64,000 bases of DNA from Paramacrobiotus metropolitanus (taxonomy: Eukaryota > Tardigrada > Eutardigrada > Parachela > Macrobiotidae): NCBI RefSeq assembly GCF_019649055.1, contig NW_026570378.1, positions 124,001 to 188,000 of the forward strand. Reading direction: 5' to 3'. Position numbers and translations under genes: made by a program. A model generated the notes under the pieces. That model did no database searches. It was not told where the DNA came from and was given only the letters and a program-made list of their open reading frames with translations. This document shows positions 1 to 52,331 of this stretch, one piece after another (position 1 is the first letter of the stretch; each line of letters starts with the position of its first letter).

Positions 1-238
1 CGTCGGCAATCTTGCAGATGCCGGTGGATTTCTCCGACATGTGCGTGGTAAACATGGTGGCAAAAACTGCCGATTGGGCAGCGAGGATGGCGCGATGTAC
101 AGCAAATTCTACATTGTCCGAAGAAATTATCTTAAAGTCAGCAAAGTTTTCCGACTGGAGGATATTGCCAAGTTTGTCGGCCAAGCTTTGCGGTCTGCCT
201 AACGCTGCCGGTGGTGTATGAACCAACAACTCGATGGA
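1..238 (-). CDS. BTB/POZ domain fragment, cut by window edge
   Basis: The minus strand is open from 238 to the left edge; a TGA at 239-241 closes the frame upstream, so the true exon start must lie inside. The translation has a typical BTB N-terminal half: a helix ending LADKLGNIL, then ENFADFKIIS, EFAVHRAILAAQSAVFATMF and HMSEKS. This matches the D-(h)-x-F-x-V-H-(K/R)-x-x-L-A-A-x-S core of POZ domains in SPOP/TD-POZ-like proteins. The C-terminal half would lie left of position 1. Related but broken copies occur at 6100-6330 and 10363-10704, each next to a BTB-like/Ubl gene or its end, so this is one half of a duplicated pair. BTB identity is fairly sure; gene boundaries, any MATH domain and whether the gene is functional are unknown. 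Confidence 0.6.
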
Positions 239-2129: not shown

Positions 2130-4641
2130 ATGTCCAGCTCAACCACCAGCGGTAAGACACTGAATTTCGCATGGAGAAACAGACAACTGGCTCTTGCTTA
2201 GTGTTCACACTCGACGCTAATATGTAGCGAGATTTTTGAATGTGCTTGATCACGTTAGCAGATTAGCATTTAGTTTTTTTTCCTTGTAGGCCAGAAACAG
2301 AAGCGAGCCCGTTCGGAAACATCGTCTGAAACAGGATCCAACATAAGTTTTGCGGATAAGGTGGCTGCAATGGAACACCAGTTTGTGAACATGCTGAAAA
2401 GCGTTCAGAAGCAGATCTTGGAATCGGGGAAAAGTCAAGGCGTCCTTATCACCTGTTGCGCCATGTATATCTTCCAGAAGGATGTCAAGGACATTCAAAG
2501 CCTCTTGATGAATGACTACGAGATGGGGAAACTGGAGCAGGTGCGGATGGTGGTTACGGGAGAGGAGATTCTGCCTTTGCCTGCGTGGATGGAAAGTGGT
2601 GTGGCTCTGCAGGCATACTGTAAGTAACAAGTGCGCAGGAGAGCTGATTGCGGATAGTTACAAGCGTGATTTCCGGAATGACTAGTTGAGGATATTTTCG
2701 TATTCTGTATAATATTTAGTCTGCTTTTAAAATTTTGGAAATGCATTAAAGTCAGAGCTGTAGAATTGGGGATTTCGGGTTAGCGAACGATACCGGGTAA
2801 GGTTTAGCCTTTAGGAAGGACTGTACGGAAGGAAGGATTGTGCTTACTATGGGAAAACGTATCTACTCTAGTGATGCATTTTCTGAATCCTTGGTATGTG
2901 TTGTAATGAATTCACCTCCAGTATTGGCGTGCTTTCCTGACTTACTGTCTTTGAGTCTGTAACAATTTTGTGCTGCTAGTGTAAAGCGTCCTAAAAATTT
3001 TGACCTGAATTGTATAAGTTTAGAGTTTTATTTCTGGAATGATGGAGTTAATACCGACAAAAAAACTGAACCAATCCTCGCCATGAATTGAAATAGTTGA
3101 ACCTTAAAACGCTGTAACTGCTCTGATTTTATGTGTTTTTTTTCAGTTGAGCGGAAAGTGGGTACTAACCGTTGCCATTCATCGGGTGATGCTCGTAAGC
3201 GTGGCTTCGAAGTGCCGTGGCGCGCCAGCGTGCAGCTGCAGAGCATCCCACCGGGTTGTTTCGTCGAGTCTGTCCAGTTGTCCTTCATCAATCCGGCCTC
3301 TGACGGCAGTCCCACCGTCAAGATGGACCTCTCGGCCGAAGGTGCCAGTAATCTGTACCTGATTAACGACAAACTGATGAACATCCGCGGTCAGACATAC
3401 TCCGAGTGCTGTCGCGAACTGGGTATCTTTCGCCAGGGATTCTGCTACGTCACGCTGCGCGTGCCGCTGCGACTGCTCATCCGCCAACAACTGAAGCAAT
3501 TGCGGATGGATTTGCCGCATCCTGCAGTGGCCGACTGCGAGGATTATTATTCCGCAGGGAATGGATGCGACAGTGTGACTTTGAAGTTTGGACGTTCCAC
3601 TGTGAAAGTGGATCGTCCGTTCTTGATGAATATTTCTGCGGAAACCCGCGCCATCTTCGGTACGAATAAGACTGCAGAAAGCCAAACTTTCAAGATTTCA
3701 TATCAAAATGACCCCAGAATTCCACAAGTCTTTACATTTTCATAACAATCTGAAATGGATAAAAGACATTTTTAAAAAAAATAAACAACAGCAAATTCCG
3801 GTAAAAATAATTTTAAGGAATTCAACGGAAATTTGTCGAAAGGTAATTGACTACATCTAGTCATGAAAGTTAAGAAGTGTGCTTAAAGTGTTGATTTTCG
3901 ACTGTACATGTAGGAACGAAGACGTCTGGGCAAGTGGGCGTGTATGAGATGGGTGTCAGTAAAGAAGCGACTATCGCTCTGTTGGACGCAGTGAAGACGG
4001 CCACCGACCATTTGGATACCGACCGAACCACACTTTCCGTTTTGTATGAACTGGTGGCGTTGTCCGTCGACTGGAATATCCCGTTAGTGAAACTGTGGAC
4101 GCAGTTAGCCTTGCTGGAGCGTCTGTGTGCGCCGGGCGTGAACCTGCAGCAGATCCCGATTGACAATTTGATCAAGGTGGTCCGTCAGGATTACGACGTG
4201 AATAGAGTGCAGACCGGAGCGAAAATGACGTTACTGGGCTTCATGTTTGCGCTGCGGGATATGTGTCTGGCAGACGTTCTGTCAACACCACTGAACGAGC
4301 TACTAGTTCGAGAATTTGATTGTATTTCTTCGCATCCAACGCTTGTGGATGCGTTTCAACCGGCAGAGTCAATGGCGAATCCGGCGACTAATACAAACGT
4401 TAAGCGGCAGTGCAAGACGCTAACCGTTCGTCAGGACGATAACTCCCTTCGCGTGCGAGTTCTGCAAACAACGAACATTGGACGAATCAAGGCCTTTGTT
4501 CAGAGTCACCTTGGAATTCCCATTTACCAGCAACGCATGGTGTTTGATGGCAGACAAATGGATGACTACAGACTGGTTGGGGATTTTGACTTTGAGGATG
4601 GAGATATGATAGAGATATTCACTGAGCAGTATGGTTGTTAG
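2130..4641 (+). CDS. BTB-like / ubiquitin-like domain protein, copy A
   Basis: Four exons: 2130-2151, 2290-2619, 3147-3659, 3914-4641, all GT-AG with consistent phase, giving 530 residues. Exon 2 codes a basic start (KQKRARSE) and a helical segment with a conserved QKQI-ESGKSQGV stretch. Exon 3 begins a domain I do not recognise (RASVQLQSIPPGC) and ends with a divergent BTB start (VTLKFGRSTVKVDRPFLMN, then TRAIFG). Exon 4 continues it (VYEMGVS...ALLDAV, VLYELVALSVDWNIPLVKLW). Residues ~455-530 are a ubiquitin-like fold with the GIP-x-x-QQR signature and an acidic EDGDMIEI strand. It ends in YGC, without Gly-Gly, so it is an integral Ubl rather than a conjugated modifier. The start was chosen because it gives a clean donor and is mirrored in copies B and C. 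A Cul3-adaptor or proteasome-linked role is only inference. Confidence 0.82.
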
Positions 4642-7247: not shown

Positions 7248-9960
7248 ATGTCCAACTCATGTTACTCAGCTACTAATGGTAAGTCGCTAAAACTTCGCAC
7301 AGGAGAGACAGTGGGCTCTTGCTTGGAGTCTTGGCGTGTACATTCGACGCTAATCTGCAGTGGAGTTTTCGAACATACGACTTGGATACTGGATAATTGG
7401 ATCATAAATTATCTGATTGGGATATAACGTTTCGTTGTATGATTGTATCTGTAGGCCAGAAACGAAAGCGAGCCCGTTCGGAAACACCGTCTGAAAGAGG
7501 ATCCTCGATGGCTTTTGTGGATAGGGTGTCTGCAATGGAAGACCAGTTTGTCAGCATGCTGAAGAACTGCCAGAAGCAGATTGCGGAATCGGGGAAAAGT
7601 CAAGGCGTGCTCGTCACCTGTTGCGCCATGTATACTTTCCAGAAGGATATCAAAGATATTCAAAGCCTGGTGATGAACGACTACGGGAGTGGCAAATTGG
7701 AGCAGGTGCGGATGGTGGTCACGGGAGAGGAGATCATGCCTGCCTGGATGGAGAGTGGCGTGGCTCTGCAAGCGTACTGTAAGTGACATGTGTGCAAGGC
7801 AGTTGAGTACGGATTCCTACGAGTGCGATTATCGGAATGATTGGTCACAAATATTTTCGAGAACTTTTGTAGATAAAATGGTTGTCGAAATATGAAACGC
7901 TGTATGTCCACACAATAACAAAGTTAATTCAACTCTTAACTCTCTTGCCTTAACTCTTAGTGGGATTGCAGATAACTCTCATTACAATCTGATTTTGTAA
8001 TTTTTGAAAATGTAGTTGCGACTTGCTTTGGAATTGTCGACAATAGAGATATTTACAGATTTACTGTATTTGTGTGTTGCTTTTGCGAAAACTCCGGTAA
8101 CGCAGTCCATGGTATCTAAATTTAGTGTAGTTATGTTTCCCTGCCTTGGGCCTTGTATGGTTTTTTGTGCTTCTGGGCAGCTGGCAGCTAGAGTAAGCGC
8201 CCTAGAAATGTTGATGTAAATTGTATTATATCGAGTTGTATTTCTGGAATTAGTATCGATGAAAAACAAACAGTCATCTCCATCATTAATTTTCGAACTG
8301 TAAAGTAGACCTGATTTTGTGCGCGTTTTTTCAGTTGAGCGGAAAGTGGGTACTAACCGTCGCCATTCATCGGGTGATGCTCGTAAGCGTGGCTTCGAAG
8401 TTCCGTGGCGCGCCAGCGTGCAGCTGCAGAGCATCCCACCGGGTTGTTTCGTCGAGTCTGTCCAGTTGTCCTTCATCAATCCGGCCTCTGACGGCAGTCC
8501 CACCGTCAAGATGGACCTCTCGGCCGAAGGTGCCAGTAATCTGTACCTGATTAACGACAAACTGATGAACATCCGCGGTCAGACATACTCCGAGTGCTGT
8601 CGCGAACTGGGTATCTTTCGCCAGGGATTTTGTTACATCACCCTGCGAGTGCCGCTACGGCTGCTCATCCGCGACCAGCTGAAGCAGTTGCGGGCGGATT
8701 TACCGCATAATGCAGTGGCCGAGGACGAGCACGATTATTCTGCAGTGAGCGGCAACGACAACGTTACCTTGAAGTTTGGGCGCTCCAGTATGAAAGTGGG
8801 TCGCCAGGTCTTGTTGAATATTTCCACCGAGACCCACGCCATCTTCGGTATGAATTAAGCTGCAACCGAAATTTCGAGATCTGAAACTGCAAACTTCAAA
8901 TCACAGTTATTTACAGTTATTTAATAATCATGCAGGCCTAGCATGCTTAAAAGGACTTGTAATGCGAAATTTTTTATGTTTGCTACACATTTAGTAAATT
9001 CTGATGAAATTACGTTTTGCTTGGCGAAGAAAATGATGGAATTTGGTTGATGAAAGGCAAATTGACTGTAAATTGAAAACATTGACTGACTGACTTTTAA
9101 TTGGCTGCAGATTGAAAACGAACAATTTTATATTTTAACCTTTACAACAGTATCTAAAAATAAGTGCAAATAATTATTTCGCAAGTTATTTTAAACTTCA
9201 GTTTGTAGCGAATTTCTTTTCGACTCTAGGTGCGAAGACGGCGGGTCAGGTGAGCGTGTATGAAATGAGTGTCAGCAAAGAAGTGGCTACGGCTCTGTTA
9301 GGCGCAGTGAATTCCGCCGCCGACTATTTGCCACTGAATCCCGAACGAACCACTCTTTCCTTTCTGTACGAGCTGGTGGCGTTGTCCAGCGACTGGGACA
9401 TCCCGTCCGTGAAACTGTGGACACAACTAGTGATGCTGGAGCGTCTCTGTGCTCCGGGCGTTAATTTGCAGCAGATCCCGGTTGACAAGCTGATAAAGTT
9501 GATTCGACACGAATTTGATTGGAATGGAGGTGTGAAAATGGTGTTACTGGGCTTCACGTTTGCATTGCGGGATATGTGTCTAGTGGATATTCTGCCGGCG
9601 ACAATGAATGGGCGTGTTGTGGCGGAATTGGATCGGATTTCTGAAGATCCAACGCTTAAGGACGTGTTTCAACCGGCGGAGATGCAGCCAAGCGTTGCGA
9701 CCAGTGCGGATGCCGTTAAGGGAGAGTGCAAGACGCTGACCGTTCGTTTCCAGGATGGTAACAGTATGCGCGTGAGAGTCTCGGAGTCGGCTAACATTCA
9801 ACGGATTAAGGCCGCAGTTGGCAATTTCCTCGGGATCCCCATTTACCAGCAGCGAATGATCTTTAAGGATAGGCGATTGGATGACTTGATTCGGGTTTCG
9901 GAATGCGGCTTCGAGGATGGAGACGAGATAGAGATGTACACTGAGCAGTATGGTTGTTAA
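7248..9960 (+). CDS. BTB-like / ubiquitin-like domain protein, copy B
   Basis: Four exons: 7248-7278, 7455-7778, 8335-8847, 9230-9960, the same phases as copy A, 532 residues. The order is the same: a basic KRKRARSE start, a helical exon-2 region, an unrecognised exon-3 domain, a split BTB-like domain (VTLKFGRSSMKV, AIFG, then VYEMSVSKEV, FLYELVALSSDWDIP), and a C-terminal Ubl (KTLTVRFQDG, IQRIKAAVGNFLGIPIYQQR, ending EQYGC). Exon 3 is almost identical to copy A for its first ~280 bases and then diverges sharply, which suggests gene conversion. All four exons are open, so the gene looks functional. The paralogue comparison is the strongest evidence for these exon borders. Confidence 0.82.
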
Positions 9961-24005: not shown

Positions 24006-25915
24006 TCAACAAACCAGCTTCTCCACAAGACGTACCCCACCCCCATCCGGAACGTTACAGTCGGCAATTGTTCTTTGGTCGTCATCCAGCCGCACACCAG
24101 CAAAGTATAAGCACTGCTGCTGGACAGGAATGGCATGCCGACTTTCAATCTCCGCCTTCATGTCTCGCACGCTATCGTGCTTGGAAATGGTCAAGAGAGA
24201 TATGGCTCCATTCATAAAACGAATGCTCACTCTTATGGAGTCGTTAGCGCTGGAATCTGCTTGCCGCCGCTCCCACTGCCAGTCCTTTAACACTTGCATA
24301 AACTCCTCCGGCTGAAAGATCTCCAATAACGCCGGATCGCTGGAGATCTCCCGGATGGCATACCGCAGTGGATAGCGGATCGTATCCGGCACCCTGACGC
24401 CCAGCATGTCCCTCAGCACAAAGGTGAAGCCCAACAACGCCATTCTAACGCCGGTCTGCGCGTGGTCAAAGTTGAAATCGCGCTGAATAAACTGCACCAC
24501 GTCCTCCATCGGGATGCACTGCAGATCGAAGCCGGGCATAGACAAGCGCTGCAGCAGCGCGATCTGTGTCCAGACTTTCAATGGTCGCACATTCCATTCC
24601 ATGGCCAAGGCGAATAACTCATACAGAAAGGTCGGTGCCGTTTCAAAAGGATCCAGTGGAAAATAGTCCGTTTTAGCTGTCGCCTGCTGCAGCAGCGTCT
24701 GTACGACTTCTTCGCCCACATCCAAAGCAAACACCCTCACTCGTCCCAGCTTTTTCCTGCCAAATAGCACCTCTGTCTCGGCGGACAAACTGTGCAAGAG
24801 CTGCCGATCCACTTTGATTCTGACCTTCTGACACTTCAGTGTGACGTTATCTTGGCCAGAGTAATCCGTCGGGGTGGTGGGCACGGCGTTAACTGGAAAA
24901 TCGTCCCATAACGGCTTCAGTTGCTGGCAGATCAGCAACCGCAAAGGCACACGTAGTTTGACACAGCAGACGGCCAAACGGAAAACCTCCAGCTCCGGAT
25001 CACACTCGGAGTACGCCTGTCCATGCATGTGCATCAGGTTGTCGTTGATGAAATACAGATTGCCGGCGTTCTCCGACCATACTTCTAACTTCGCCGTTGG
25101 ATGATCCTGCAGACCTTCCAACCCCGGTAGGATAAAGGCCAGCCGCACCGATTCCACCATGCAACCACTGGGAATGCTTTTCAGCTGCAGTCGGGCGCGC
25201 CACGGAATCTCAACACCATGTTTAGCGGGATCCCCTGACGAATGCGGTCGAGTCGACTGCATCTTTCCGTCAACTACAAAATCATTCACCGTAACCAACG
25301 AGTACAGTCAATGCCGGCCACGGTTGTGGTACTGGATTATTACCGATTATACAATACGAAGTTGATAGCATATACCATGGCAGTACTATACTATTAATGG
25401 TATAATACTGCCATGCATACTCGTACGAGGGAAGACAGATGGCCTACGAGTACACTTACAGGATGCCTTAAGAGTTACACCGCTGTCCATCCACGCCGGC
25501 AAAGGCAAGACCGTCTCGCCGGTAACGCTCACATCCACGCCCTCCAACTTCCCTATTCCATAGCAGTTCATCTCCGGGCTCCCGATGTCCTGCATATTTT
25601 TGCGAAAGGAATATCCTGCGCGGAACGAAATGCATGCCCCCACACTACGCTCCGCGTTGATAATGTGCTTCTGACAATTCTTCAACATTTCCACAAACTG
25701 GTCCTCAACAGCAGCCACCCTCTCCACGAAAGAAACGGTGCCCGCTGCCGGCTGAAGAGATGCTCCGGTTTCAGTACGTTTCCGTTTGCTACCTACACGC
25801 AGAAAACATCCGACCTGAACATATCCCAAAGGCTTAACAGACTAAACTGGCACTTGACAAGATCTCTCCAAAGGCTCTTCTTACCCGAATAAGCAGATGG
25901 GTAATGTCCGCTCAT
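24006..25915 (-). CDS. BTB-like / ubiquitin-like domain protein, copy C
   Basis: Three exons on the minus strand: 25915-25885, 25792-25460, 25273-24006; 543 residues. It has the same plan as copies A and B: a short first exon ending in a split Gly codon, a basic KRKRTE start with VEDQFVEMLKNCQKHI, the RARLQLKSIPSGC domain, and a BTB-like part (VTLKCQKVRIKVDRQLL, EVLFG, FLYELFALAMEWNV). The C-terminal Ubl (SIRVSIRFMNGA, VRDMKAEIESRHAIPVQQQ) ends in KLVC without Gly-Gly. The intron that splits the BTB-like domain in A and B is absent; the reading runs straight through. It is head-to-head with the glucosidase II gene, with about 970 bases between start codons. Function is not known. Confidence 0.8.
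25377..25414. repeat. Short hairpin in intron 2 of copy C
   Basis: A 15-base stem (ATGGCAGTACTATAC and its complement with one mismatch) closes a loop of about 8 bases, lying within the intron at 25274-25459. It could fold in the pre-mRNA; no family assigned. Confidence 0.5.
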
Positions 25916-38296: not shown

Positions 38297-39798
38297 TTAG
38301 CGGTGCTTGTCACTCAGTTCCGCGAGGACGAGCACATATCCAAACACGCCGCAGACAATCTACAGAATATTAGCACCGTATAGATCAGCTAGAGATATAT
38401 TATTGCTTTCCAATATATTAAAGGCTCAGAATACAATATAAGAACAACAAGAATATTGTTTGGCATATTTAATAATATTTAATGATAATTCCGCATTGCT
38501 AGTTATTGATTTGACAGATTGTAACTCACGCCAGTAAACCTGTCACGGTTGACAGGTAGTCCAGCTAAAGTTACTTGTGGTTCCAAAGCGGAAATACGAT
38601 CCAAATGAAGGGTGATAACGGCAGATACATCAGACGATGGTTTGTCAAAGGCTAGAATGTGCTCCAGTAAATTAATTACCTTTTCTTCCTGCAAAAGTAT
38701 TTCGACACATCTCGCCCGAATACTTGCTAAATTTACGAAAAGGTTTCACGCTGTTTCTCTTAATACAGAATTGGTTAAAATTGTTACAACAACTGTCCAC
38801 CAGCATACCGTTTCATTGACATATAACGAGGACAGTAACTGCATTAACACGACGATGGCACTGGATAGCAGGTACAGCACTCCGGCCACATCAAACGGGT
38901 TTGGTACTTGCTCCATAACGTTATCTAAAAACTCCTGGAGATATCCCATATTAATCAGCAGCGTCTCGGTAAAGGTCATTAGGTTCAGCCACGAGAAGTG
39001 CTGATCGTATGCGCACAGTCGTTGGCAAATTAGCAAATGTATACTCAAAAGACTCTTCAGCTTGCCGGCATCAAGAGCTCTAATAGAGTAAGATTCAATT
39101 TTCTTCCTAATCGCCGCTAACTGCAGCTCTTCGATGAAAGGAAACAAAATAAGAGTACATTGCAACGCTAGGTACCCCATCCAGCAAATCTCATGCAGCA
39201 GTTCAACGCACACCGCCAGCGGTGTGGCGTTGCGAGCCAAAGCCATGTACTGTTGGAGCAATCCCGTTAGGTTAGCGGTATCCCTGTTTAATTCGAGTAT
39301 AAGGCCAGCTACATTTGTCCCGGGATAAACCAAGAAAAGTGTCACCGAGCAGATGGCTATTTTGACCGTATGATGAGGTTGCAGAAAAGCCTTGAAGGTG
39401 ATCACCATCGATGCGGAGTACGCTGCTAAGAAGCCCTCCAATCGCCAAATCTGCACGGCATAGATCAGTCTGGTCAGGGGATAGGTCGCCTGTATCGGGG
39501 TTTTAATCAGCCGCCGCGACATATTCGTGATCAAAGAGGAAAGCCGTAGAGTTTCGGAAGCTTTGATGATGTTGGCGAAGAGCTGTAGCATAACGTATGC
39601 GGCCATGATGCAGTGCGCACAGTAGATTGACAACCGCGAATTAGTGAATGCTCGGGCTTGAAAACAAAAGTACCCGCATAAATGCATGATGCAAAACCAA
39701 AAGTAGTTGTGGATTTTTAGATAGCCGTAAGAATTTCGGTGGCGTTGTGTGGTACCCATTTTAACCATGCGAGTATGTTTAATGTTCACAACGAACAA
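38297..39798 (-). CDS. Gustatory-receptor-like 7TM protein 1
   Basis: Three exons on the minus strand: 39798-38809, 38688-38530, 38359-38297; 403 residues, both introns phase 0. Exon 1 has a short N-terminus, KIHNYFWFCIMHLCGYF (TM1), PLTRLIYAVQIWRLEGFL, and further hydrophobic segments ending SSLYVNET. Exon 2 has the ICL3-like LLEHILAFDKP and EPQVTLAGLPVNRDRFTG. Exon 3 is the last TM, IVCGVFGYVLVLAEL, then SDKHR. The C-terminal pattern P-x-h-T-x-x-G-(L)-x-(V)-N-R followed by a TM after a phase-0 intron is that of invertebrate GRs, but the usual TYxxxxxQF is not present. The start could instead be the Met at 39759. GRs are ligand-gated cation channels in sensory cells; the ligand here is unknown. 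Confidence 0.78.
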
Positions 39799-41067
39799 CT
39801 GATGTTCGACAGAGAAGTAACGTGGTGCTAGTATTTAAAAAATTGGCACGACAAGCGATGCGTTCCTTCGGTGTGGTAAACAAAAACTATCGAACGCTTC
39901 GGCCTATCAATCATTTGGCTTGCGTAATGCATCCCGAATATATGTAGAGTACGTGTTGTTCCAGTTGTGTTTACTTGTGATAGAATATTCTAGCTGTATA
40001 AATTTTATAGAAAACGCGTCAGCGCCCATAATTCGGGAATTTTCTAGAGTGTGCAACTTGTTCTTATTGCCCATTTTACCGGCATACAGAAATGTTTCGC
40101 TAGAACAGATTATTAACAGGTCACGCCAGGTGGCCTTGAAATACAAAATCTACGGAAACGGATCAAACTATAAACAGTGCTGCAGTGCACTTGCACTGTT
40201 CATTAGTAATTTAGGTATGCATAGACAGCGTAGTTAGCGGCAATTGTGGAAAAGCCCGCCTTTCTTAAAATTCTTTGCACCAGAGTTCTTGATGGTCTTG
40301 CAAGTTGCAAGCAAATTTACTAGTTTGTCACCGACTGTGCACTTACTGTAGGACCTGGCGTGCACGAATCCGATTTATCACAACGGAACGGTAATGCACG
40401 CTATATCTAAGGGTTTCTGCATAACGTTATGAAACAACGCCCTTTGGACTTGGACATTTTAGGAACACGAACTTGGGCTACCACCTCGCAAACTTCAATT
40501 AAAAAGATAGTCTGCTACGTGCTACAAAAACTGACGCGACCGTACATATTGTAGCTGTTGTTTTTAAAGTAAAGAAAACATTTATACTGCAGCTATGCGT
40601 AAGTACTGCCCTATAAAGTGCACACTTTTATACCGGCACGATATGGGAAACCCGTTATTACTAATAAACACCAATTACGTATTATTACTACTCGGCTAAT
40701 TACTACTAGTAAGTACTTCGCTAATGAAGTTCTGCTTAAAGCGCGGCTCACTCACTCACTCACATTCACATTGTATAGTACGAGTACTAATGCTGCAAAT
40801 AAGTCTGCTGAAAATCCCCTTGTACGATCAAGCATTTGTAAACGACTTAGGTAATTCAAGCCAAAAGCATAATCAAAGTATCACGCTTCATTTATAGCTA
40901 AAGCTCCATTCAAATAATTACGAGTGGGAGCAGCATTCCCACGCACCGTTTTTCGGGTCGTGGGCGTCTTCTAATGCACATCATAGTCTGCAAGACCATG
41001 CAAAATTTCGAGTCCTTTCGCCCAGATACTTCGAATTAAGGTATTACGGAATTCCAGAAATACAGTT
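39799..41067. other. Intergenic between GR 1 and GR 2
   Basis: The 5' flank of GR 1 (39840-39930) resembles that of GR 2 (42600-42730), consistent with tandem duplication. The 105-codon frame at 39920-40237 is not recognised and is not conserved next to the other GRs. Confidence 0.4.
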
Positions 41068-42538
41068 TTAGCGGTGCTTGTCACTAAGTTCCGCGAGGAC
41101 CAGCACGTATCCAGACACACCACAGAGAATCTGAAAGACGTGATAATGATGATTAAATATCGTAGTCAGCCAACAGCAACGAAACAGTCTGTATGTCCAT
41201 TGTGACGCACTTATATACTGTATAAACGCCCTAATAAGCATTATTCTCTGCATATTTGGACATGCACAGTGTCGGCAATCTGATCAGCGGACAGCAACTC
41301 ACAGCGATGAACCTATCGCGGTTGACAGGCAGTCCAGCTAAAGTTACTTGTGGTTCCATGACCGCAATATGATGTAAATGGCGATGGATAACGCTAGCAA
41401 CACTGGTCGACGGTGCATCAAAGGCCAAAATGCGTTCCAACGAGTTGATTACGCTTTCTTCCTGCAAAAATATTCCAACTATATTTATACAAAAAAGGTT
41501 TTGCACTCCCATCATTAACGGTTTACAGAATTTATTGTTATTAAGCGAAACCGGAAAAAATACATCTTGCATTATTTGTACCGTTTCATTGACATACAAC
41601 AAGGACAAGAGCTGGATCAGAACAACGACGGCACTGGATACAAGGTACAATAACGTTGACTTATCCAAGGGGCGCTGCGCCTTAACATCATCAAGAAACT
41701 CTTGGAGAACTCCCATGTTAATTAGCAATATCTCGGTAAAGGTCATCAGGTTCAGCCAGGACAGGTGTTGATCATAAGCGCGCAGTCGTTGACAAACTTG
41801 TAAATGTAAATGCAAAACATTTTGCAGTTTTGAAGGTTCAACAATGCTGGAAGAAATCTTCTCTCTAATAGCCGCTAGCTGTAGGTGCTCGATGGACGGA
41901 AATGTAATTAGAACACACTGCAACGCTAGATATCCCATCCAACAGAGCTCATATAGCAATTCAATAACCACAGAAATCGGTGTGGCTCTGCGACCTAACA
42001 CCGTGTACTGCTGGAATAATCGTGTTAGGTTAACGGTATCCGTGGATAGTTCCAGCACAACAGATGCATAATTTGTACCGGGATAAACCAGAAAAAGTAG
42101 CAATGAACAGACAGCTATTTTGATCGCATGACGAGGTTGCATAAGAGCCTTAAAGGTGGTCATTATCGATTTGGAATATGCTGCTAAGAAGCCCCCCATT
42201 CGCCAGATCTGCACCGCATAAATCAGTCTCGTCAATGGTGAAGCCACTCGATTCGGGATTTTAATCAGCCGTTCCGCCATGTTGGGGATCAGGTAGGTAA
42301 GCCGCAGGGCTTCTGAAGCTTTGATGAGATTGGCGATGAACTGAAGGACCACGTATAAGCCCATAATGCAATGCGCAGAGCAGATCAACAATCGTGAATT
42401 CGTAAATGCTCGTACTGGAAAACAGAAGAACCCGCACACATGCATGATGCAAAACCAAAAATAATTATGCACTTTTAGAAACCCAAAGCACAGCCTGTAC
42501 CGTTGCATGCTGTTGATTTCTATCTGACGACTGCACAT
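41068..42538 (-). CDS. Gustatory-receptor-like 7TM protein 2
   Basis: Three exons: 42538-41582, 41461-41303, 41130-41068; 392 residues, the same phase-0 introns as GR 1. Key segments: KVHNYFWFCIMHVCGFF, PLTRLIYAVQIWRMGGFL, DQHLSWLNLMTFTEILLINM, SLLYVNET at the first splice, EPQVTLAGLPVNRDRF in exon 2, and ILCGVSGYVLVLAELSDKHR in exon 3. Read-through of the first intron also stays open, so an unspliced form could be translated, but exon homology to GR 1, 3 and 4 favours splicing. The nearest relative in the window is GR 1. The start may be the internal Met at 42505. Confidence 0.78.
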
Positions 42539-43460
42539 ATTTTTAATGTTAACAATGGAAACCCGATTTCGGACAGATGATTTACGCTTGGATCATATAT
42601 GTGGACTTAAACTAGCAAAAGTTGCGCTCCTTCGATACTTCGATACTGAAGTACAAGTATGGCAAACGAAACGCTTGAATAGCGCTTCAGTTTGCCATTC
42701 AATTGGCATGCATATGCATAATTGCGCATTATAATGTGACACCAGTGTGTATTTTGCCAGCTGTATTTACTGGTGGCTGTTCTACATTTACTTATAATTA
42801 CAGCAGTGTACCAATATGTGACAGTTAATTCCCTGCTGGATTCGCAAATGTTCCATGTACATACCCTACTCCTAATTATACTTGTACCGGCGTGTGAAGT
42901 ATTTCAACACAACCAGTAGCTAAAGGTCACAGCACAAACTGTAATGACATTGATGAAGAATTATAAATTAACTGATATTCAGCGATTAAAAGAAGCAGTC
43001 GAACTGGGTGAAAAAGAAATAGAACAAGGTTTTAATAGACTGCGAAAAGAAGAGGGTGATCTTGTCATTCGATGCTCGTGAATGATGGCCTCTAGTGCGG
43101 CAAGAGCTGCGCTACTTTGAGGGGTCACCCGAAAAACGAAATCGTCGTCTCGCGGCAGCCGAGATGTAAAAGAATACAGTTTTTATTACGTCTTTGTTTC
43201 CCTTTTACAATAGTTCTTATTGGAAATTAAAGACGCGCAGGCCTGTGGTATACGGTAATTACGAAAAGATGTACTGTTGCGACTTGCGAGTATATGAATA
43301 CTGTGAGCTAACAACAGTGACAGTAATCAGAATAATGTCTACGGGAAAGACACTCAACGCATTGTGCCACTGTTTTGGAAATCATTTGCAGTTATCACAT
43401 AAAAACTGCAAACTATGCAGACTGAAGTATTGAGTCACTGTACCATCATCGGCAATGACT
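42539..43460. other. Upstream of GR 2
   Basis: 5' flank of GR 2 and unassigned sequence. The only item noted is the 45-codon frame at 42944-43081. Confidence 0.35.
42944..43081 (+). CDS. Small open frame, 45 codons, unknown
   Basis: The peptide starts MTLMKNYKLTDIQRLKEAVE and continues as one charged, lysine/glutamate-rich predicted helix. It stands out from the surrounding sequence because of its regular amphipathic composition. No family can be assigned; chance is quite possible. No splice partner or promoter was identified. Confidence 0.2.
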   Translation: MTLMKNYKLTDIQRLKEAVELGEKEIEQGFNRLRKEEGDLVIRCS

Positions 43461-43812
43461 TTGTACAAGCCCGTCCGGATGATGAGCACGATAGAGAACT
43501 GCGATAAATGTAATTTCATGGGTTACGCCAAACGAGATACCACGCAACGCCACGCCACACTGTTCAACCACGTCACATGCGATTGGCTGGCTGTGGCCTG
43601 GTGCACGCCATATATTTCAATGGGAATAATGGTAGTTGCCTGGCGGCAGGTGGTCAGAAAACGGTCGGTGCAGTAAGGCACAATCTAACTGCGGAGCGCA
43701 TTTGCGCATTGTGGCAAACGTAGTGCAGTGGCCATCGTGCTAGGCGCTAACATCGCGCTTAATATGCGTTAGCTGTATCTTTACGTGGTCATCATCCGGA
43801 CGGGCTTGTACA
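43461..43812. repeat. Inverted repeat pair, ~25-bp arms
   Basis: GTACAAGCCCGTCCGGATGA at 43461 recurs inverted at the right end (to 43812), with about 300 bases between. The arms are short and no target duplication was found; perhaps a small MITE. Confidence 0.45.
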
Positions 43813-43979
43813 TGTACTTGTACCGCGTATCAACTACTGCAGAGTGCAGAGTCGTGGCTGCTAACCCGTAACGTCGACGTGGCCACCAAACGTTCTCCTA
43901 TACTTACTTTACATGATTACTGCAAAAAAATTGAAAAATACAAACTTCATCAAAATACTGCACATTGTATCCTACTCAC

Positions 43980-44418
43980 CAGGGCCCGGTCACCGGCTCC
44001 GGGCTCCGAAAATTTTCATTTTTTGCAGGAAGACAGGGTAACCCTTAGGCATACTTAAAAAAATATTTTCATCGGCCGTGGTTACCTGGGTGTGGCTAAA
44101 CTTAATTCCAGTGCATTAATACATACAGCACTATGTGTTGGGCATACCGTAATGTTGTAGCTTACAATGTCAAAGGCTTGCAACAGATACGTGTTATCTG
44201 TAGTCCGATCCTTTCTAATTCTTCTAAAAATTTCTGCTGTTAATAATCGAGAAGAATTTAACAAGACTTGTGAAACTAGTGAGTTGTGGTAACGCGAATT
44301 AGCCACGCCCACTTAACCATGGCCGATGAAAATATTTTTTCAAGTATATCCAAGGGTTACTCTGTCTTCCTGCAAAAAACGAAATTTTTCGGAGCCGGGA
44401 GCCGGTGACCGGGCCCTG
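43980..44418. mobile_element. MITE with ~115-bp TIRs, CAGGGCCCGG ends
   Basis: The left end CAGGGCCCGGTCACCGGCTC and the right end are inverted copies over roughly 115 bases (including GGAAGACAGGGTAACCC and AAATATTTTCATCGGCC blocks). CAGGG termini are common in hAT-type elements, but the flanks do not show an 8-bp duplication, so the superfamily is unproven. No coding capacity. Confidence 0.65.
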
Positions 44419-45342
44419 GTCAGTGACATAAGTCTCATATTGTGGTGATTATATTTAGGTATGCGACCAAATCGACGTTACTGGCCAGCTACTCAGAACC
44501 GGTATTGACAATGTAACATGCCGTACCTAAATTATGCAACACTGCGCAGTGATCAATGTTAATGCAGTGATCAATGTGATGGTCCGCGTAAGAAATCTAT
44601 TCGTTTATATAAATTACGAGTTGCGCAACTATGCGGTGATTTGCATGTGCTCTGTACGTCTATGAGTCTGGTACACTGCATGGAATTTTTACATTGTATT
44701 GGACTGCCAATGCAAGTGCGTACACACACTGGTGTCCATGTACGTATGACTGTAGAACGTACATGTTGTGTACTTATGATTGTAGAATTAGTTGAGGTAC
44801 TGCTAATTGGTAGGCCGTATGCAGTATGTAAGATGCAGTATGTAAGTGAGTTGCCGGAAGATGAATTTTCCATGGTGCAGGTATGTGTATGGATATCAAT
44901 AACAAACTTCTAATTGGTTGTCGTTTTATGGCTAAATTACTTCCTGGAAATATTCTTCTGGGATCATTAATAAGTCAGTATCCATGCCATTCCGCAGTCA
45001 AACTTTCAATTGGATTAATTTTCTTTAGCACTGATATGCGGAACAAACAAGCGCAAAAAATATGGACCCGAATCCTGCCGCTTGCTGATGAAGGCTAATG
45101 GGTGCTGACCCGGTGAGTTGCCGCTGTGGCGCACATAATGTCCGCGCCACCGGAAACTTTTCGAAGAATTATGATTGATGGGCCCAGAAGAAGTGCGAAA
45201 TAATTTTCCCAAGAAGTCATTTACCAAAAAGTGAATACTTGTATAATCATTCTAGTTCTACCCGGAAAGCCAGCTTAAGCCACTCGCAGAACCAATATCA
45301 CTGGCAAGTGGCAGACTACCTACGTAGGCTTTTCCTTCCGCT
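44419..45342. other. Intergenic, upstream of lectin gene 1
   Basis: No gene supported; two opposite ~90-100-codon frames at 44571-44913 overlap and have no domain. From ~45100 on it is alignable with 50560-50930, the flank of lectin gene 2. Confidence 0.35.
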
Positions 45343-45350
45343 TATAAATA
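45343..45350 (+). promoter_or_regulatory. TATA box of lectin gene 1
   Basis: TATAAATA lies 95 bases before the start codon. A CTCAGGCAGTC initiator-like sequence follows about 40 bases later. Lectin gene 2 has a weaker match (CATATAAGTATC near 50878) at the equivalent place. Confidence 0.4.
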
Positions 45351-45437
45351 TTATATATTAACGAGAAGACTTGTGAAACCAACTCAGGCAGTCATTTTAT
45401 TCAAATCTTATTATTATTAAAACATTCTAATCGAACA

Positions 45438-47512
45438 ATGTTATCTTTTCTTGGTTCCAGCTTGCGTGCGCTGCATTTAGATATCATTATTCTGAGTGTT
45501 GTCTCTTGTTATACAAGCGTTGCAAACCCGATCGATCAGGGAAAACAAGATTTCGTTAAAACAGCCGCCCGCAATGGATTCCAAAATTCCGGCACGCTTA
45601 GAGCGAATTCCAGCGTTTCAGGTAGAAATTATTCAGTAAATTTAAATTCCGAAGGAGACACCCAGCGAGATTTCTTTGGGAGAAGAATGGATAGTGGCGG
45701 CGCTACTGGATTGGATAGTGTCAATTTTGCCTTTAGTCTGGGACGTGATATTAGAACCATTCTGGAAAAACTTGATAAAGTCGCCAGCAGCTCCTTGAGT
45801 GGTTATTTAGCATTAACAGCCCGCGTGGCATCATTGGAAAATTCAGTGAAAGCAGATTTTACCAACAATTCAGCAAACATTTCCGAAGGGCTGCAAAATC
45901 TTCGGTTGGCGTTGACCAACCGACTAGCTCTATTGGAAAATGGTGTGGCCATCACCGCGCGCACTTCCATGAAGTGTTCGTTAAAGAAAAGAAGTAAACC
46001 GGTTCCTGGTAAGTCTAATCTTATAAATTTATCATCAATTGATATCACTATATATATTTTGTATTTTAGTTTTTAGGCAGCGTATTATTCTTGAACGTCA
46101 AGTACTTTTCCTAATCTTAAGACAGTATCCGTACACGGTAGCATAATAATAAATGTAAATACACTTAGTACGCCCTGAGTTAGGATCGAGCATTCCACAA
46201 GAAGTTAATTTTTTCAGCCGGGACCATGAAAGCCGGAGATGAATTATATACCGAAGAACAGTTTTGTGCCACCGATCTTCAAACATGTCTGTACCTGCAG
46301 AGCAACGGAAATATGGTGCTCTACCGGACGATGACAAAAAAACACAGCCGGTACTTTGCGATTGCTTTATGCGGCTAGTTGTTTCGAAAACGGCTCGGTT
46401 TACATGTTCAGCAATGCATTAATCAGGTGACAGACAGAACATTCTGTGCAAAGTACGGTAATTCATTCACGCAGCGTTACAATGGAGGCTATAACACTGC
46501 AACAGACAGATCGTATGCAGCAGCTCGCAAACGCGAGCGCCAGCTTTTATTTTAACGCGCAATGGCGCTAACCGGCTCGGGCAGAGCAAGACGTTCAACA
46601 GAACCAGACTAAGAGAATTCTAAACAGGTAGACAGCAAGCACATCTCTAGGGAAGGCGCCAATCCTCTGCTTCGACTGATCTCCCTGTCTCCTTCCATTT
46701 GGCACGATTGGTGCTGCGGACATCACAGGCCTTTCAGTCCAAGCCGTCACTGAGTAGCCAGGGTGGTATTGTGATCCTCCATCTCCCGTGCCCGTCTCCT
46801 TGGTGGTAATGCTGCCTCAGCCAAGCACTTCGCACACAGGCCTTGCGGGCCGTGCACTCGCAGCCTGAACTCAGAGTGGTCACCCATCTAAGTCCAAACC
46901 GCGCTCGATGTAGACTATCTTTCAAAACCCGAAGGTTTATCCATCTAGCCACAACGAGTGACTGCAGGTTATTTGGACCTCGTACACTGGAGTGGGTGAC
47001 TGCCGGTCGCTTCTCAAAATGCAAGACGACGGCCGTCTTGCGGTGTATCATTTCCCAACAACGGTCGCCAGATGGGCAACACCTTTAGCCGCAGGTCAGG
47101 CACTGAGCTGGATAAATTTCATGCATTTGTTAATCACTGTGACAAAGACTACATCATGATGTACTCGTAGTGTTTCTGCCGTAGAATGCAGCATAACTAG
47201 TAATACGAGCGTACATACATCACAGGGCGCATGCAAAAATCACGAATTGATGTAATTGTGGAAATGTTTTCCATTACTTTACGTTTCTGTTTATTCCGTA
47301 TCCGTACGTAAGTCTCCGTACATTTTCATCGTTCTGATTTTCTGTGTATCAACACAATATAGCCAATTATTTTCGTAGGCGCCGAGCTGGGATTTCGAGC
47401 GAATGGCCACTTGTGCCTAAGGTCTCCTGGTGCCGCTGACAATTCTGACTGTTTATGGTCCACGGATTTTATTGATCCGGCTTGGGAATCTCAGATATAC
47501 TACCAGAAGTGA
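45438..47512 (+). pseudogene. Secreted coiled-coil / bulb-type lectin gene 1, split by an insertion
   Basis: Three exons by comparison with gene 2: 45438-46008, 46218-47094 (interrupted), 47379-47512. Exon 1 (571 bases, the same length as gene 2) has a signal-peptide-like start, FAFSLGRDIRTILEKLDKV, and a coiled-coil segment (RVASLENSVKADF, LALLENGV), ending KCSLKKRSKPVP. Exon 2 starts GTMKAGDELYTEEQF and the lectin motif YLQSNGNMVLY, then is broken after RTMT by a ~627-base insertion that brings a stop at 46376. Lectin sequence resumes at 46963 (VIWTSYTGVGDCRSLLKMQ) in the right frame and exon 3 (ELGFRANGHLCLR...IYYQK) is undamaged, so the insertion is probably young. Splicing out of the insert is possible but I found no in-frame pair. 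Confidence 0.75.
46336..46962 (-). mobile_element. SINE-like insertion in lectin gene 1
   Basis: Its limits are set by comparison with the uninterrupted exon 2 of gene 2. Flanks are imperfect duplicates, ACGATGAC (46328-46335) and ACGAGTGAC (46954-46962). On the minus strand the start resembles a tRNA head: TGGCTAGATGG fits the polymerase III A box, and GGTTTGGACTT about 45 bases later is a weak B box. The other end is a run of seven T on that strand. The length (~627) is long for a SINE, so the class is tentative; the insertion itself is clear. Confidence 0.65.
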
Positions 47513-48143
47513 AAACAACCTGCGATTATTTAATCGAAGTTGGTGTATTTGCTAAGTAGCATCGTAAAATCAATGAAATCATGCTAGGCTGGGCTGTGCA
47601 TTTAACTCTGAAACAATCCAAACCAGACATCTTGTCTTTTACTCCAAACATTCGCTACAACTATTTTCGGTATTCACATGATGGCAATTTTTAAAGAATG
47701 TACGAGCATGTAAAGCATGCTGTCTTTTTATCAGCGGGGAAAAAATGTTCTTAAAATTGGTTCCAAAATAATGTGCAATCGGCATTCAGAACACTTCATT
47801 TATTTACCCTGATATTCTGTTTCGAGTTTTGGCATAGTCGTAGCTCAGAAGAGTGACGTTATTCGCCAGCATAGGCGGGGCTGACATTGAGCGGTCCTTT
47901 AGGTGGCCATTTGGTCAAACACTTAAGTCTTTGGCAACGATAACCAGACAATCGAAAATTTAAAACAATGTAGCGGAACACATACGAATAATATGTTACC
48001 GTTAAAACACAGCATCATAACATTTTGTAAATTAACTGAGGTAATAATTTATGCGGCTCTGTTTGACGCAGATATACAAACACTTGATGCACATTTTCAT
48101 GATGACATCTGTCGTTGTCATTTCGATGCTCTATTGGTGAGTT
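47513..48143. other. Spacer between lectin 1 and GR 3
   Basis: Contains the 3' flanks of both convergent genes. It is alignable with 52450-53012 in unit 2. No gene. Confidence 0.4.
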
Positions 48144-49688
48144 CTACCGATGCTTGTCGCTCAGTTCCGCTAAGACCAAAACATAGCCAAACACGCCACA
48201 AATTATCTGTAAAGCAGCAATAATTTTTAAGCTAGCATACTCATACGTCTGCATTGATGCCATAGATCGATATGGTATTGTTTAGATGCTTCGTGCATTT
48301 GTATTCATCATTTACTTGTTTGCTGTTTGGTCCAACTGACTAACGCGTGTTTCAGTATTTACCTTTATAGATTACGTGAATCAGTCCCAATATACATATA
48401 ATGACAACAAGGTGACACTTACTCCGACAACGCGGTCACGATCGACAGGCAGGCCAGCTAGAGTTACTTGAGGCTCCATGGCAGAAATACGATTTAAGTG
48501 GTGGCTCACTATGACATGATTGCTGGACGATGGCTTACCAAAGGCTAGAATCCGCTCCAGTGAATTGGCTAGGCTCTCATTCTACAAATGCCAGTGAAAA
48601 ATTTTAATAATGTAATCACTGATTAAGATGACGAAAAAACTTTAATGACGGCACTAAAATCGTTACTGTTTATCGTCGTGTTAAAAACGAAAGGTTCGTG
48701 GGTGTTTGGTGTTAACGATTAGTTGCTATTAGCAACTTGCTAATACCGTTATCGACGTACCATTTCGTTGACATACAACGACGCAAAAAACTGCAGCGCC
48801 ACAATAAACGCACTGGAAGCTAAAAATAACAGTGTAGGTATATCCATATAACGCTGGTCCATAAGGTCATCGAGGACATACTGCAGGTGCCCCAAGTTAA
48901 TCAAAAGCGTTTCAATAAAGGTCATTAAACTTAGCCACGATAGGTGCTGATCATACGTGCACAATCGTTGACAAACCACTAAGTGTGTTTCCAGTACACT
49001 TCCCAGCTTGGCTGAATCAGCAGCATTATCCGAAAAAGCGTCAATGCTGTCTCGCAGCGCCGCTATCTGTAGCCCTTCGATAAAGGGAAACACAACAAGA
49101 GCACACTGTAGACATTGGTAGCCCATCCAGCAAGCAGCAAACACCAGTTCAGCAAAAACAGCAGTCGGTCCGGCGCTGCGCCCCAAAACGCTGTACTTGG
49201 CCAACACATCCGCAAAGTTAAATATCCCGGTATTCCACTCCATTACTCTAATCACTAAATTTGAACCCGGAAACACGACGAACAGAAATGCTGAAAAAGG
49301 GAATATTTTGTTTATGTGATTTTGTTGTAGAAATGGTACAAAGGTCGTCACCAGTGACGTGGAATAGGCCGTTAAGAAGCCCTCCAATCGCCAAATCTGA
49401 ATGACATAAATTAGCCTGGTCAGAGGAAATGTCACTTGCATGGGGGTTAGAATGATCTTTCTCGCCATGTTTGTGAGCGCGGAAGTTATTAGCTCTAACG
49501 ACGTTGGTAATGAACTGCAGAATGACGTATGCTCCCATTATACAGTACGTAAAGTTACGCAACAAACGCGAGCTGATCAAGGTTTTTACCGGCAAGCAGA
49601 AGTAGCCACAAATGTGCATGATGCCAAACCAGAAGTAATTATGCAGTTTCAAACAACCTGGTAAGCACCATCTTGATTTGCTGTTCAT
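48144..49688 (-). pseudogene. Gustatory-receptor-like gene 3, frameshifted
   Basis: Three exons as in its paralogues: 49688-48761, 48581-48423, 48206-48144. The start (CLKLHNYFWFGIMHICGYFC) and everything after MARKIILTPMQVTFPLTRLI are well preserved, including DQHLSWLSLMTFIETLLIN, YVNEM, PQVTLAGLPVDRDR and the last exon GVFGYVLVLAELSDKHR. Between them, near 49489-49495, comparison with GR 4 shows a 14-base deletion that shifts the frame after FITNVVRA. The two halves lie in different frames. No other damage is seen, so inactivation is recent or reflects an assembly error; a truncated protein starting at 49468 would lack TM1-2. Confidence 0.72.
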
Positions 49689-50956
49689 TTTGAATCATGC
49701 ACCGCTTGAGCTGCTGAATGACACAAGCGGAGAACACTGTCTGAAATTCCAGCTTCACGCTGTTAGTAAGTACATACCAAGGGAATGACATTATCCACTA
49801 CTCGGAAGTTGCGCACAAAACACTTACTAGCTTTGATAGCAAAAACTCTTTATCGTTCTAAGAATTGGCAACTGGCCACTCAGCCGAAATACGCCATGAA
49901 ACAGGTGTGCGGTCAGATGCAAGCGTACTTCGGCATACACCGCAGCGTTATTTACCAAGGTCGGTACCGTTACCAAACATATCGGATTCTAAATCGCAAA
50001 CTATCAGATTCCGGGATTGTGTAATGAAAGGCGAAGCCGAAAGTTGGGAACTGTTTTGTGATCAGCTTCCTGTTTTGGACTTTATTGCCCGGCTCGCACG
50101 TAGCTCTACCATCGAATTATTCAAGAAGTGGAGCGAATACGTATGCGCGGCGGAAACATACGGCAGTGTGAAGTTTTAATGCGATTAACGGAGTATTTAT
50201 AATTAGTTTTAATAGTTTGTGATGAAGTTATCGGTGCACTGAAAACTGATGGCCGTATTTAAGACTTTGTTGTTTTGCGAAGGCTTTATACACAGTCCAA
50301 AGGAAGTGCTGTCCGAGGAATGTTAACGCCAACAGTAAACGCCTTACGGCTTAACACATATACCGGTACTAAAAAGTGTGCTCTCCAAACGGATGCGTCT
50401 ATATACGTAGTAAATATTTTTGGCGGTAGCGTAACAAGAAATTTCTCGAGCTCGAGGCTGCTTTATACAGTAACGGAATGCTGCTTCCTGTTCCCCCTGT
50501 GTTTTGAGCCGGAACCGAAATTTTAGACGATGACACACGTTATTTAGTCGCGCTGATTTACAAGTACTTTATGCTCCATCCGGGCCAGGTGGGTGGGAAA
50601 ACGTGAACCAGAATCTTGCCGCCCACTAAATGACTGCTAATAAGTAGTGGGCCTAATGGCCTAAACGGCCGCCTAGACCTGCTTAAAGCCGACGTCGTCG
50701 GATCTTTTTTGAAGAAAAACTTATCACCGATCACGGAAGAACTGCAATAATTTTTCCAGGAATTCATTTAACCAAAAAATGACTATTCTCAGTTTTCCCG
50801 TTTGTCTACTTACAGATAAGTCGCTTGCAGAACTAACGTGACTGGCAGACTTTTTTCCCGTAGGCTTTAATTTTTTGCATATAAGTATCAAACGATGAGG
50901 TCTATGAAAACCAGCGATACGATGGAATGTGATTATTGATACAATTTCCTTAAAGA
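49689..50956. other. Spacer between GR 3 and lectin 2
   Basis: Alignable in parts with 54640-55700. Short frames (up to 104 codons) are not conserved in the duplicate and are taken as chance. Confidence 0.4.
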
Positions 50957-52331
50957 ATGTTGTATTTTACCAGTTTCATTTTGCGAGCGTTTCATTTACA
51001 CGTTGGTATTCTGATTGTTGATTCTGCTCATGCAAGTTTTGCAAACCCGATCGAACACGGAACACATGATTTCGTTAAAAGAGCCGCTCGAGATGGATTC
51101 CAAATTTCCAATACATTTAGAGCGAATTCAACCCCATCAGGTAGAAATGATTCGGTAAATTCCAATTTGGGAGGGAACACCCACCTGTATTCCTTTGGGA
51201 GAGGAAAGGATGGTGGTAGGGCTTATGGATTCGATAGCGTTAATTTTGCCTTCAGTCTGGGCCGCGATATCAAGGCAATTCTGGAGAAGCTCGATAAGGT
51301 CATGGCCAACTCCATGGGTGGTTATTTAGCATTGAAAACCCGCGTTGAGTCTCTGGAAAATTTGCTAAAAGGAGATTATGTTAAAAAGTCTGAAAATATC
51401 TCCGAAGAGCTACGGAATCTCCGACTTACCGTCACCAACCGCCTAGCTCTACTGCAAAATGGTGCAGACATTGCCGCGCGTACTTCAATGAAGTGTTTGT
51501 TGAAGAAAAGAGACAAGCCTGTTCCAGGTAAGTTTGATTTTAATACAGGCAGTAGGTACAGTAATACTTGGAAATTTGAACTACTCATAATATAGAACTA
51601 CTTTTTATCTTTGCATTGAACACGAGGTGATGCCAGTTAAGGTCCCAGCATTATTATACAGCATGTGTGTGCTTATGCAAGCACTTGTTTCTGTATGCGT
51701 TCGTATCCTCTTCACAAAACTAGTGTTTTAGTGGGAACCATGAAAGCAGGAGATGAACTGTATGCCGAAGAACAGTTTTGCTCCACCGACAACCAGACAT
51801 GCCTGTACCTGCAGAGCAACGGGAATATGGTGCTCTACCGGACGATGACATTGCAGGTTATTTGGACATCATACACCGGTGTGGGTGACTGCCGGTCGCT
51901 TCTCAGGATGCAATACGATGGCCGCCTTGCGCTGTATCATTTCCCAACTAAGGAAGCCAAAGGGGCGACAGCATTAGCTCACGGTTAGGCGATTGGATTT
52001 GATAAATTGCAGTGACTTGTTAATCACTGTAATTAGTGTTTCAGCCGTAGAGCACAACCGGTATAATCACAGTAGCTGTGCGTCACAAGGCGCATGCGAA
52101 AAGAAAAAATTAACATACTGGGTTATTTACTTGTGAATTTCCGTATATCTATTTCGCTTAATGCCAGTTTCTTTGGTATCCTGCAAGCAAGTACAGCGAA
52201 TACTCTTTTTAGGTGCCAAGCTGGTATTTCGAACCAATCTGTGTCTGAAGCTATATGACGATTCCGACTGTTTTTGGTCAACTGATTTCATTGATTCGGC
52301 GTGGGACTCTCAGATATATTATCAGAAATGA
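50957..52331 (+). CDS. Secreted coiled-coil / bulb-type lectin 2
   Basis: Three exons: 50957-51527, 51732-51983, 52213-52331; 313 residues, phase 1 at both introns. The protein has a hydrophobic start (secretion signal, ending near HASFA), a low-complexity N-terminal part, FAFSLGRDIKAILEKLDKV, and one coiled-coil segment (RVESLENLLKGDY, SEELRNLRL). A basic KCLLKKRDKPVPG linker follows, then a three-part lectin region: YLQSNGNMVLY and MQYDGRLALYHF in exon 2, and KLVFRTNLCLK in exon 3, ending SQIYYQK. The Q-x-(D/N)-x-N-x-V-x-Y pattern is that of bulb-type mannose-binding lectins, whose domain is a three-fold beta-prism. Not every sugar-binding residue is kept, so binding is uncertain. Likely a secreted oligomer; function unknown. 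Confidence 0.8.

Follow-up and report, generated by a model that had tools for sequence, protein, structure and literature searches.

A clustered tardigrade gene family joining putative MATH-like and BTB-like domains to a C-terminal ubiquitin relative that mostly ends in cysteine

Introduction

In the adaptor SPOP, the MATH domain binds the substrate and the BTB domain binds Cul3, and a basic segment is found at the C-terminus of the protein. Ubiquitin-like domains (Ubls) that are integral parts of larger proteins, of the Rad23 and ubiquilin type, dock to the proteasome; and a BTB fold and a Ubl pack together, as two separate proteins, in Elongin C and Elongin B. The conjugation of ubiquitin through its own tail needs the C-terminal Gly-Gly. 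In Bacteroides fragilis, a ubiquitin homologue (BfUbb) has been described in which a C-terminal cysteine replaces Gly-Gly; according to the available excerpts of that paper, this bacterial protein has a signal sequence, is present in culture supernatants and binds human E1 covalently, in a complex that its authors saw under non-reducing and not under reducing conditions (PMC3352274). In Brassica, the accessible parts of the source describe class VI proteins that carry MATH, UBQ and a peptidase in one chain, with no BTB described, and class II proteins that carry MATH with BTB, in some cases with BACK, and not with UBQ (PMC3664471).

The proteins described here share with Brassica class VI, as far as the excerpted text goes, the presence of MATH(-like) and ubiquitin-type domains in one chain, and differ from it in the peptidase and in the BTB-like part. 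Like integral Ubl proteins, they hold a Ubl within a larger protein and without a usable Gly-Gly; unlike them, the Ubl is C-terminal and mostly ends at the position of the ubiquitin terminus with Gly-Cys. BfUbb is the closest precedent found for such an ending, although the family unit sits inside a MATH-BTB-like animal protein (PMC3352274). No description of a MATH/BTB protein with a C-terminal ubiquitin and a Cys end was found in open-access text, the nearest case being that of Brassica (PMC3664471). In a comparison of tardigrade genomes, a BTB orthogroup is listed, and the word ubiquitin is absent from the available portion of the text (PMC5531438). Positive selection on nematode MATH-BTB proteins with Cul3 was also looked for in open-access text, and nothing was found.

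Genes of the window and their family

The window is the whole stretch of 64,000 nucleotides of Paramacrobiotus metropolitanus DNA analysed here, on the contig labelled C158. It holds three genes of the family: gene 1 at 2130-4641 on the plus strand (4 exons, 530 amino acids), gene 2 at 7248-9960 on the plus strand (4 exons, 532 amino acids), and gene 3 at 25915-24006 on the minus strand (3 exons, 543 amino acids), the coordinates given by the original prediction being exact to the base in all three. Every internal junction of these genes is GT-AG, and the introns in the models of genes 1 and 2 are of phase 1 (after codon base 1). The features, with predicted domain limits, are as follows.

2130..2151, plus strand: gene 1 exon 1, with the ATG start codon, a GT donor and a phase-1 intron
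2290..2619, plus strand: gene 1 exon 2 (gene model; fold from a related copy), with the basic segment KQKRAR, a helix and the first MATH-like strands (from about 2442); dN/dS 0.27 against gene 2
3147..3659, plus strand: gene 1 exon 3 (gene model, predicted folds), with the remaining MATH-like domain (to about 3469), the linking helix and BTB strands 1-2 (from about 3569)
3914..4641, plus strand: gene 1 exon 4 (gene model, Pfam, predicted fold, profile comparison), with the remaining BTB core (to about 4125), the helical region (about 4126-4380), the Ubl (about 4414-4638) and the stop
4633..4638, plus strand: gene 1 terminal Gly-Cys codons, GGT TGT, read from the sequence
7248..7278, plus strand: gene 2 exon 1 (gene model)
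7455..7778, plus strand: gene 2 exon 2 (gene model), with KRKRAR, a helix and the first MATH-like strands
8335..8847, plus strand: gene 2 exon 3 (gene model, base comparison), with the MATH-like part and the BTB start; its first 295 bases are near-identical to gene 1
9230..9960, plus strand: gene 2 exon 4 (gene model, Pfam), with the BTB-like part, helices, the Ubl from about 9736 and the terminal Gly-Cys at 9952-9957
25885..25915, minus strand: gene 3 exon 1 (gene model)
25460..25792, minus strand: gene 3 exon 2 (gene model), with KRKR, a helix and the first MATH-like strands
24006..25273, minus strand: gene 3 exon 3, a single open frame (predicted fold), with the remaining MATH-like domain (about 25271-24951), the BTB core (24848-24543), helices (24509-24258), the Ubl (about 24239-24009), a Val-Cys end and the stop

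In gene 3, exon 2 has no more than the initial strands of the MATH-like domain. A single uninterrupted exon of 421 codons encodes the greater part of this domain and everything from the BTB-like domain through the helices to the Ubl, so that the joining of these domains is independent of any gene model. The basic start that had been proposed for the proteins is present as an N-terminal basic segment in the window genes, and the helical region proposed to follow it is matched by a helix predicted before the MATH-like domain in a related copy. Between 3147-3441 and 8335-8629, only 2 of 295 bases distinguish genes 1 and 2, and 47 of the next 218 do so; the confinement of this near-identity to the MATH-like part of exon 3 may be read as a sign of recent gene conversion. 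Elsewhere in the window, four related long open frames on the minus strand (38746-54653) resemble, by eye, multi-pass membrane proteins of the chemoreceptor type, and repeated genes on the plus strand (45348-59710) have, also by eye, a bulb-lectin-like part.

A search of the 169.8 Mb assembly (533 contigs) with the BTB-Ubl part of gene 1 (E<=5e-8, this one genome) gives 35 copies on 12 contigs. The three paralogues that had been noted as a possible new family therefore belong to a family that is real and large, of 35 copies instead of three. The copies are clustered, with five, for example, on the contig of the window, three of them inside it. The part of gene 1 that precedes BTB-Ubl gives 43 matches in total in the same genome, counted per exon, and other copies have stop-to-stop open frames of 392-496 amino acids. 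Among bacterial and archaeal genome contigs, no relative of the single exon of gene 3 was found. In one family member, L031 (3-983; G000:C63:284902-285882), the exon 2 open frame opens on a match to Hsp70 (PF00012, E 1.7e-11, over profile 394-491, which we take to be the substrate-binding part of Hsp70), and this copy may be fused to Hsp70.

The coding parts appear to be under constraint in the comparisons made: dN/dS is 0.23-0.39 in 12 of 12 pairs drawn from the window genes and eight other copies, the pairs being hand-chosen and non-independent, two of them with dS > 1.4. One intron of the three in genes 1 and 2 gives a match, 69 bases long, and the other two give none. Some copies are apparently damaged, with an in-frame stop at C83:715 (L012), C63:627091 and C228:98469 (L032), and with a frame apparently shifted between the two pieces of L021 (C83:513361-514586). 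Gene decay, as a general reading of the family, is nevertheless rejected on the dN/dS values, although these copies look broken.

The ubiquitin-like domain

The C-terminal domain is a relative of ubiquitin. The Pfam profile PF00240 matches above its curated cut-off in all three window proteins and in 10 of 10 further copies (13/13 tested), and a structure model of the gene 3 exon (421 residues, predicted from 47 aligned rows, with a mean pLDDT of 86.1 and a pTM of 0.69) has a Ubl that overlays ubiquitin with a best VIA Z of 16.2 and an rmsd of 1.1 over 78 residues. Comparisons across the family were made on 33 Ubls, which are those of the 65 PF00240 matches of the genome judged to sit at family loci; two polyubiquitin ends (used for comparison), C3:256092 (an open frame of 42 amino acids with a stop) and 29 others taken as polyubiquitin or other genes were left out. 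One of the 33, C63:601025, has no assigned BTB copy, and it and C63:635767 are partial exons that give short Ubl alignments. Identity to ubiquitin over 74 positions goes from 59% (44/74 in the best near-full copy) down to about 22%.

The hydrophobic patch of ubiquitin, L8-I44-H68-V70, is retained in part. Of the 33 Ubls, 28 have I, V, L or M at position 44 and 26 retain Gly47; H68 is found in 13/33 and V70 in 14/33. The first two values favor a reading in which the Ubl, as in integral-Ubl shuttle proteins, would chiefly dock the adaptor to the proteasome, with Gly-Cys as a by-product of lost conjugation. In genes 1 and 2, on the other hand, position 8 is Q, 68 is E and 70 is F or Y, only position 44 being kept as hydrophobic, so that for these two genes docking through the usual patch is in doubt; as judged from their residues, this partial patch weakens a simple docking role. 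Moreover, any residue in place of the last glycine would block the tail, yet it is Cys in 22 of 33 copies despite a median Ubl identity of only 33% among the Cys-ending ones. We consider the shuttle reading somewhat unlikely.

In fact, the ending is the most distinctive trait of these Ubls. Read to the stop, none of the 33 ends in Gly-Gly, 21 end in Gly-Cys and 22 in Cys, the one Cys ending of another type being the Val-Cys of gene 3; two more copies have Cys followed by one extra residue. The original prediction was right that a Ubl without Gly-Gly closes these proteins, and it overlooked the recurring Gly-Cys replacement. Two ends of polyubiquitin genes of the same genome were read, and both give Arg-Gly-Gly followed by the stop, so that the Cys of the Ubl replaces Gly76 itself instead of being added after it. 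Since Gly-Gly is missing, the fused ubiquitin should escape conjugation through its own tail. The Gly-Cys codons vary (GGT TGT, GGA TGC, GGA TGT, GGC TGC and GGT TGC), and over Ubl positions 1-74 of the 22 Cys-ending copies 100 of 231 pairs are below 30% identity. Of the eight copies on C158, on C37 and at the edge of C83, seven keep the Cys. On the other hand, its absence from 11 of the 33 copies argues against a strict need for it, and in a ranking of conservation over all 33 Ubls, which is led by K27, Q41, Q40 and P37, G75 is tenth and the terminal Cys column falls outside the top 14.

The history of the terminal Cys was followed on a tree of 20 BTB copies, 14 of them with the Cys, in which 11 of 17 inner branches are open. 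All four main groups have members with terminal Cys, as has gene 3; L031 and L040, which form a weakly placed pair, lack it. The label needs a minimum of 5 changes, at least 4 of them forced by supported branches; a count as low comes from 261 of 500 label shuffles, which means that the Cys is unclustered and that the tree gives no demonstration of a single origin. One early change to Cys with scattered losses would be the simplest account, repeated gains being also possible.

The retained Cys hints at a different job for the ubiquitin tail. The Ubl might mimic ubiquitin at E1 or E2 and form, through its terminal Cys, a disulphide or thioester with the catalytic cysteine, so that the adaptor would hold or inhibit this machinery, perhaps only under oxidation such as drying. 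We regard this as improbable: the cytosol is a reducing environment, and the LRLR tail of ubiquitin is retained only in some ubiquitin-near copies, genes 1 and 2 ending in TEQYGC. The retention of the terminal Cys across copies speaks in its favor, as does the E1 complex of Cys-ended BfUbb under non-reducing conditions, in the excerpts available (PMC3352274).

The BTB-like region

Evidence for the divergent BTB-like fold that had been proposed comes from profile comparisons and predicted secondary structure. In hhalign, 19 rows of the family and 23 BTBs from this genome align collinearly over 93 columns, with a score of 30.9 and a P of 4.9e-4 for this single comparison, and a probability of only 32%; as controls, the best of 60 column shuffles scores 18.3, the reversed profile 12.7, the MATH-region profile 14.3 and the exon 2 profile 14.1. 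When PDB sequences were searched by hmmsearch with a profile of the MATH and BTB regions, two matches at E<=10 were obtained, both with the BTB of ZBTB7A (E 0.09 and 0.12) and both aligned on the BTB part. With a BTB-only profile, three of four matches are BTBs, namely ZBTB7A (0.025 and 0.033) and ZBTB5 (0.75), the fourth being the unrelated cGAS-like receptor 1 (E 1.9). Finally, residues 142-243 of the gene 3 exon model are predicted as strand-strand-helix-helix-strand-helix-helix-helix, which is the order of the BTB core. The BTB-like domain call is thus supported by sequence profiles and by the model.

Pfam is silent on this region. At E<=10, neither PF00651 BTB nor BACK is matched by the whole proteins of the window, by 10 other copies or by 20 isolated BTB regions. 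The helices that follow the BTB core in the gene 3 exon model, at the place where a SPOP-type protein has its BACK or 3-box helices, are thus likewise without a BACK match. As a positive control, in three canonical MATH-BTB genes of the genome Pfam finds BTB in 3/3 and MATH_2 over the cut-off in 2/3. Of the checks that the original prediction had suggested, the Pfam profile search for BTB, BACK and ubiquitin found ubiquitin only, and structure prediction gave the ubiquitin overlay and the elements in BTB order, while a structure search with the same gene 3 exon model, which contains the BTB part, gave only ubiquitin among the matches listed. The genome also has canonical BTB genes, with 150 canonical BTB matches scored genome-wide; one of them is at the left edge of the window (G000:C158:123858-124163, overlapping window 1-163, minus strand, PF00651 E 4.2e-16), and two more are on the same contig.

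Alternatively, the BTB-like part may no longer bind Cul3, the proteins being scaffolds or decoys of a fast-duplicating family in which the Ubl is structural. A BTB too divergent for Pfam would fit, and so would the abundance of clustered copies, of which some have stops or frames that appear shifted; on the other hand, dN/dS well below 1 in all 12 comparisons runs against this explanation, which we judge unlikely. Since the BTB fold and the Ubl are the two folds combined in Elongin C and Elongin B, they might also pack together here in a single chain that serves another cullin. A helical region of about 85 residues, predicted at 255-338 of the gene 3 exon model, separates the two, and we find such an arrangement scarcely plausible.

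The MATH-like domain

The remaining domain had been described as an unrecognised one of about 140 residues. It extends across exons 2 and 3, and it is indeed blank in Pfam, with MATH unmatched at E<=10 in the whole window proteins, another 10 copies and 13 MATH-region members; by fold, on the other hand, it most resembles MATH/TRAF. This resemblance comes from a model of copy L026, which was read through a 102-base intron and includes 34 translated intron residues (mean pLDDT 80.7, pTM 0.76, residues 93-121 of the intron stretch being below 50). In VIA, rows 1-41 of the 50 listed are MATH/TRAF chains, which represent four proteins only: 31 chains of SPOP, eight of USP7, one of KLP-6 (presumably through its MATH domain) and one of meprin. 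The best of these has a Z of 7.0, with an rmsd of 3.9 over 124 aligned residues. The alignments run mostly over model residues about 28-227, and the SPOP MATH domain is covered from 26 to 166. The last nine of the 50 listed rows are four SIAH chains, which we take to have a TRAF-like fold, 2an6, which has no telling label, and four unrelated chains (Z 3.6 to 4.8). None of 995 chains reaches Z 8, below which, according to the tool, a match may mean merely a common arrangement.

Other comparisons of this region gave no match. Foldseek returned none at E<=0.001 for the L026 model, its first rows mixing KLP-6, SPOP and unrelated bacterial and viral chains, and viral predicted structures gave none at the same threshold. 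By hhalign, 17 joined MATH-region rows score 10.0 against five canonical MATH sequences of the genome, below at least 10 of 60 shuffles (best 24.8). The MATH-region profile A5, made of 13 of these 17 joined regions (19 were tried, two of which could not be cut), has 0 matches among PDB sequences; in the joining all introns were forced to phase 1 and several second junctions on C3 and C63 are unreliable, A5 using first junctions only. In the genome, PF22486 matches the canonical MATH genes and no member of the Ubl-tailed family; PF00917 and PF21355 give no matches, and their controls were silent too. Taken from the predicted fold, a MATH-like nature of the domain seems quite likely, and since MATH is what the domain most resembles by fold, the proteins would be SPOP-like.

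A SPOP-like layout with a fused ubiquitin

The proteins run from a basic segment and a helix through a MATH-like domain, a second helix, a BTB-like domain and further helices to a Ubl with, mostly, a Gly-Cys end. Given the order of the MATH-like and BTB-like parts, this layout resembles that of SPOP plus ubiquitin. In SPOP and the MATH-BTB Cul3 adaptors the same order is found of MATH, linking helix, BTB and helical region, and SPOP MATH chains are the top structural matches listed; the basic segment is also shared, but here it is N-terminal. The family is unlike SPOP in that its MATH and BTB parts are missed by Pfam and in the terminal fused ubiquitin. Since recognisable MATH-BTB genes are also found in the genome, the Ubl-tailed genes would be a separate branch or have a separate origin.

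The reading that we favor, with moderate confidence, is that the family consists of divergent SPOP-type proteins (MATH-BTB-helical), expanded in this lineage, each with a complete ubiquitin fused C-terminally, whose final Gly76 has changed to Cys and which is therefore non-conjugatable by its own tail. The change of Gly76 to Cys would probably have happened early in the family, leaving a fused unit without conjugation by its own tail. In such a protein, the MATH-like domain would catch the substrate, the BTB part would dimerise and recruit Cul3, and the tethered ubiquitin surface would act as a permanent ubiquitin signal for a reader, be it the proteasome, a segregase or another ubiquitin-binding protein. 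The Cys tail may have been retained for a thiol-based contact or modification. A bolder version makes the terminal thiol the working part of the protein: it would either enter into a reversible reaction with E1 or E2 at their catalytic cysteine or accept ubiquitin from these enzymes, giving a thiol-gated and possibly drying- or oxidation-sensitive adaptor; we hold it to be very improbable, and to our knowledge a thiol-gated fused-ubiquitin adaptor has no animal counterpart.

If the domain calls hold, a substrate catcher, a ligase contact and a ubiquitin surface of the degradation pathway would be united in a single chain. Ranging from 59% to about 22% identity to ubiquitin, and with Cys last in 22 of 33, the copies provide a natural series that makes the use of a non-conjugatable ubiquitin tail directly testable.
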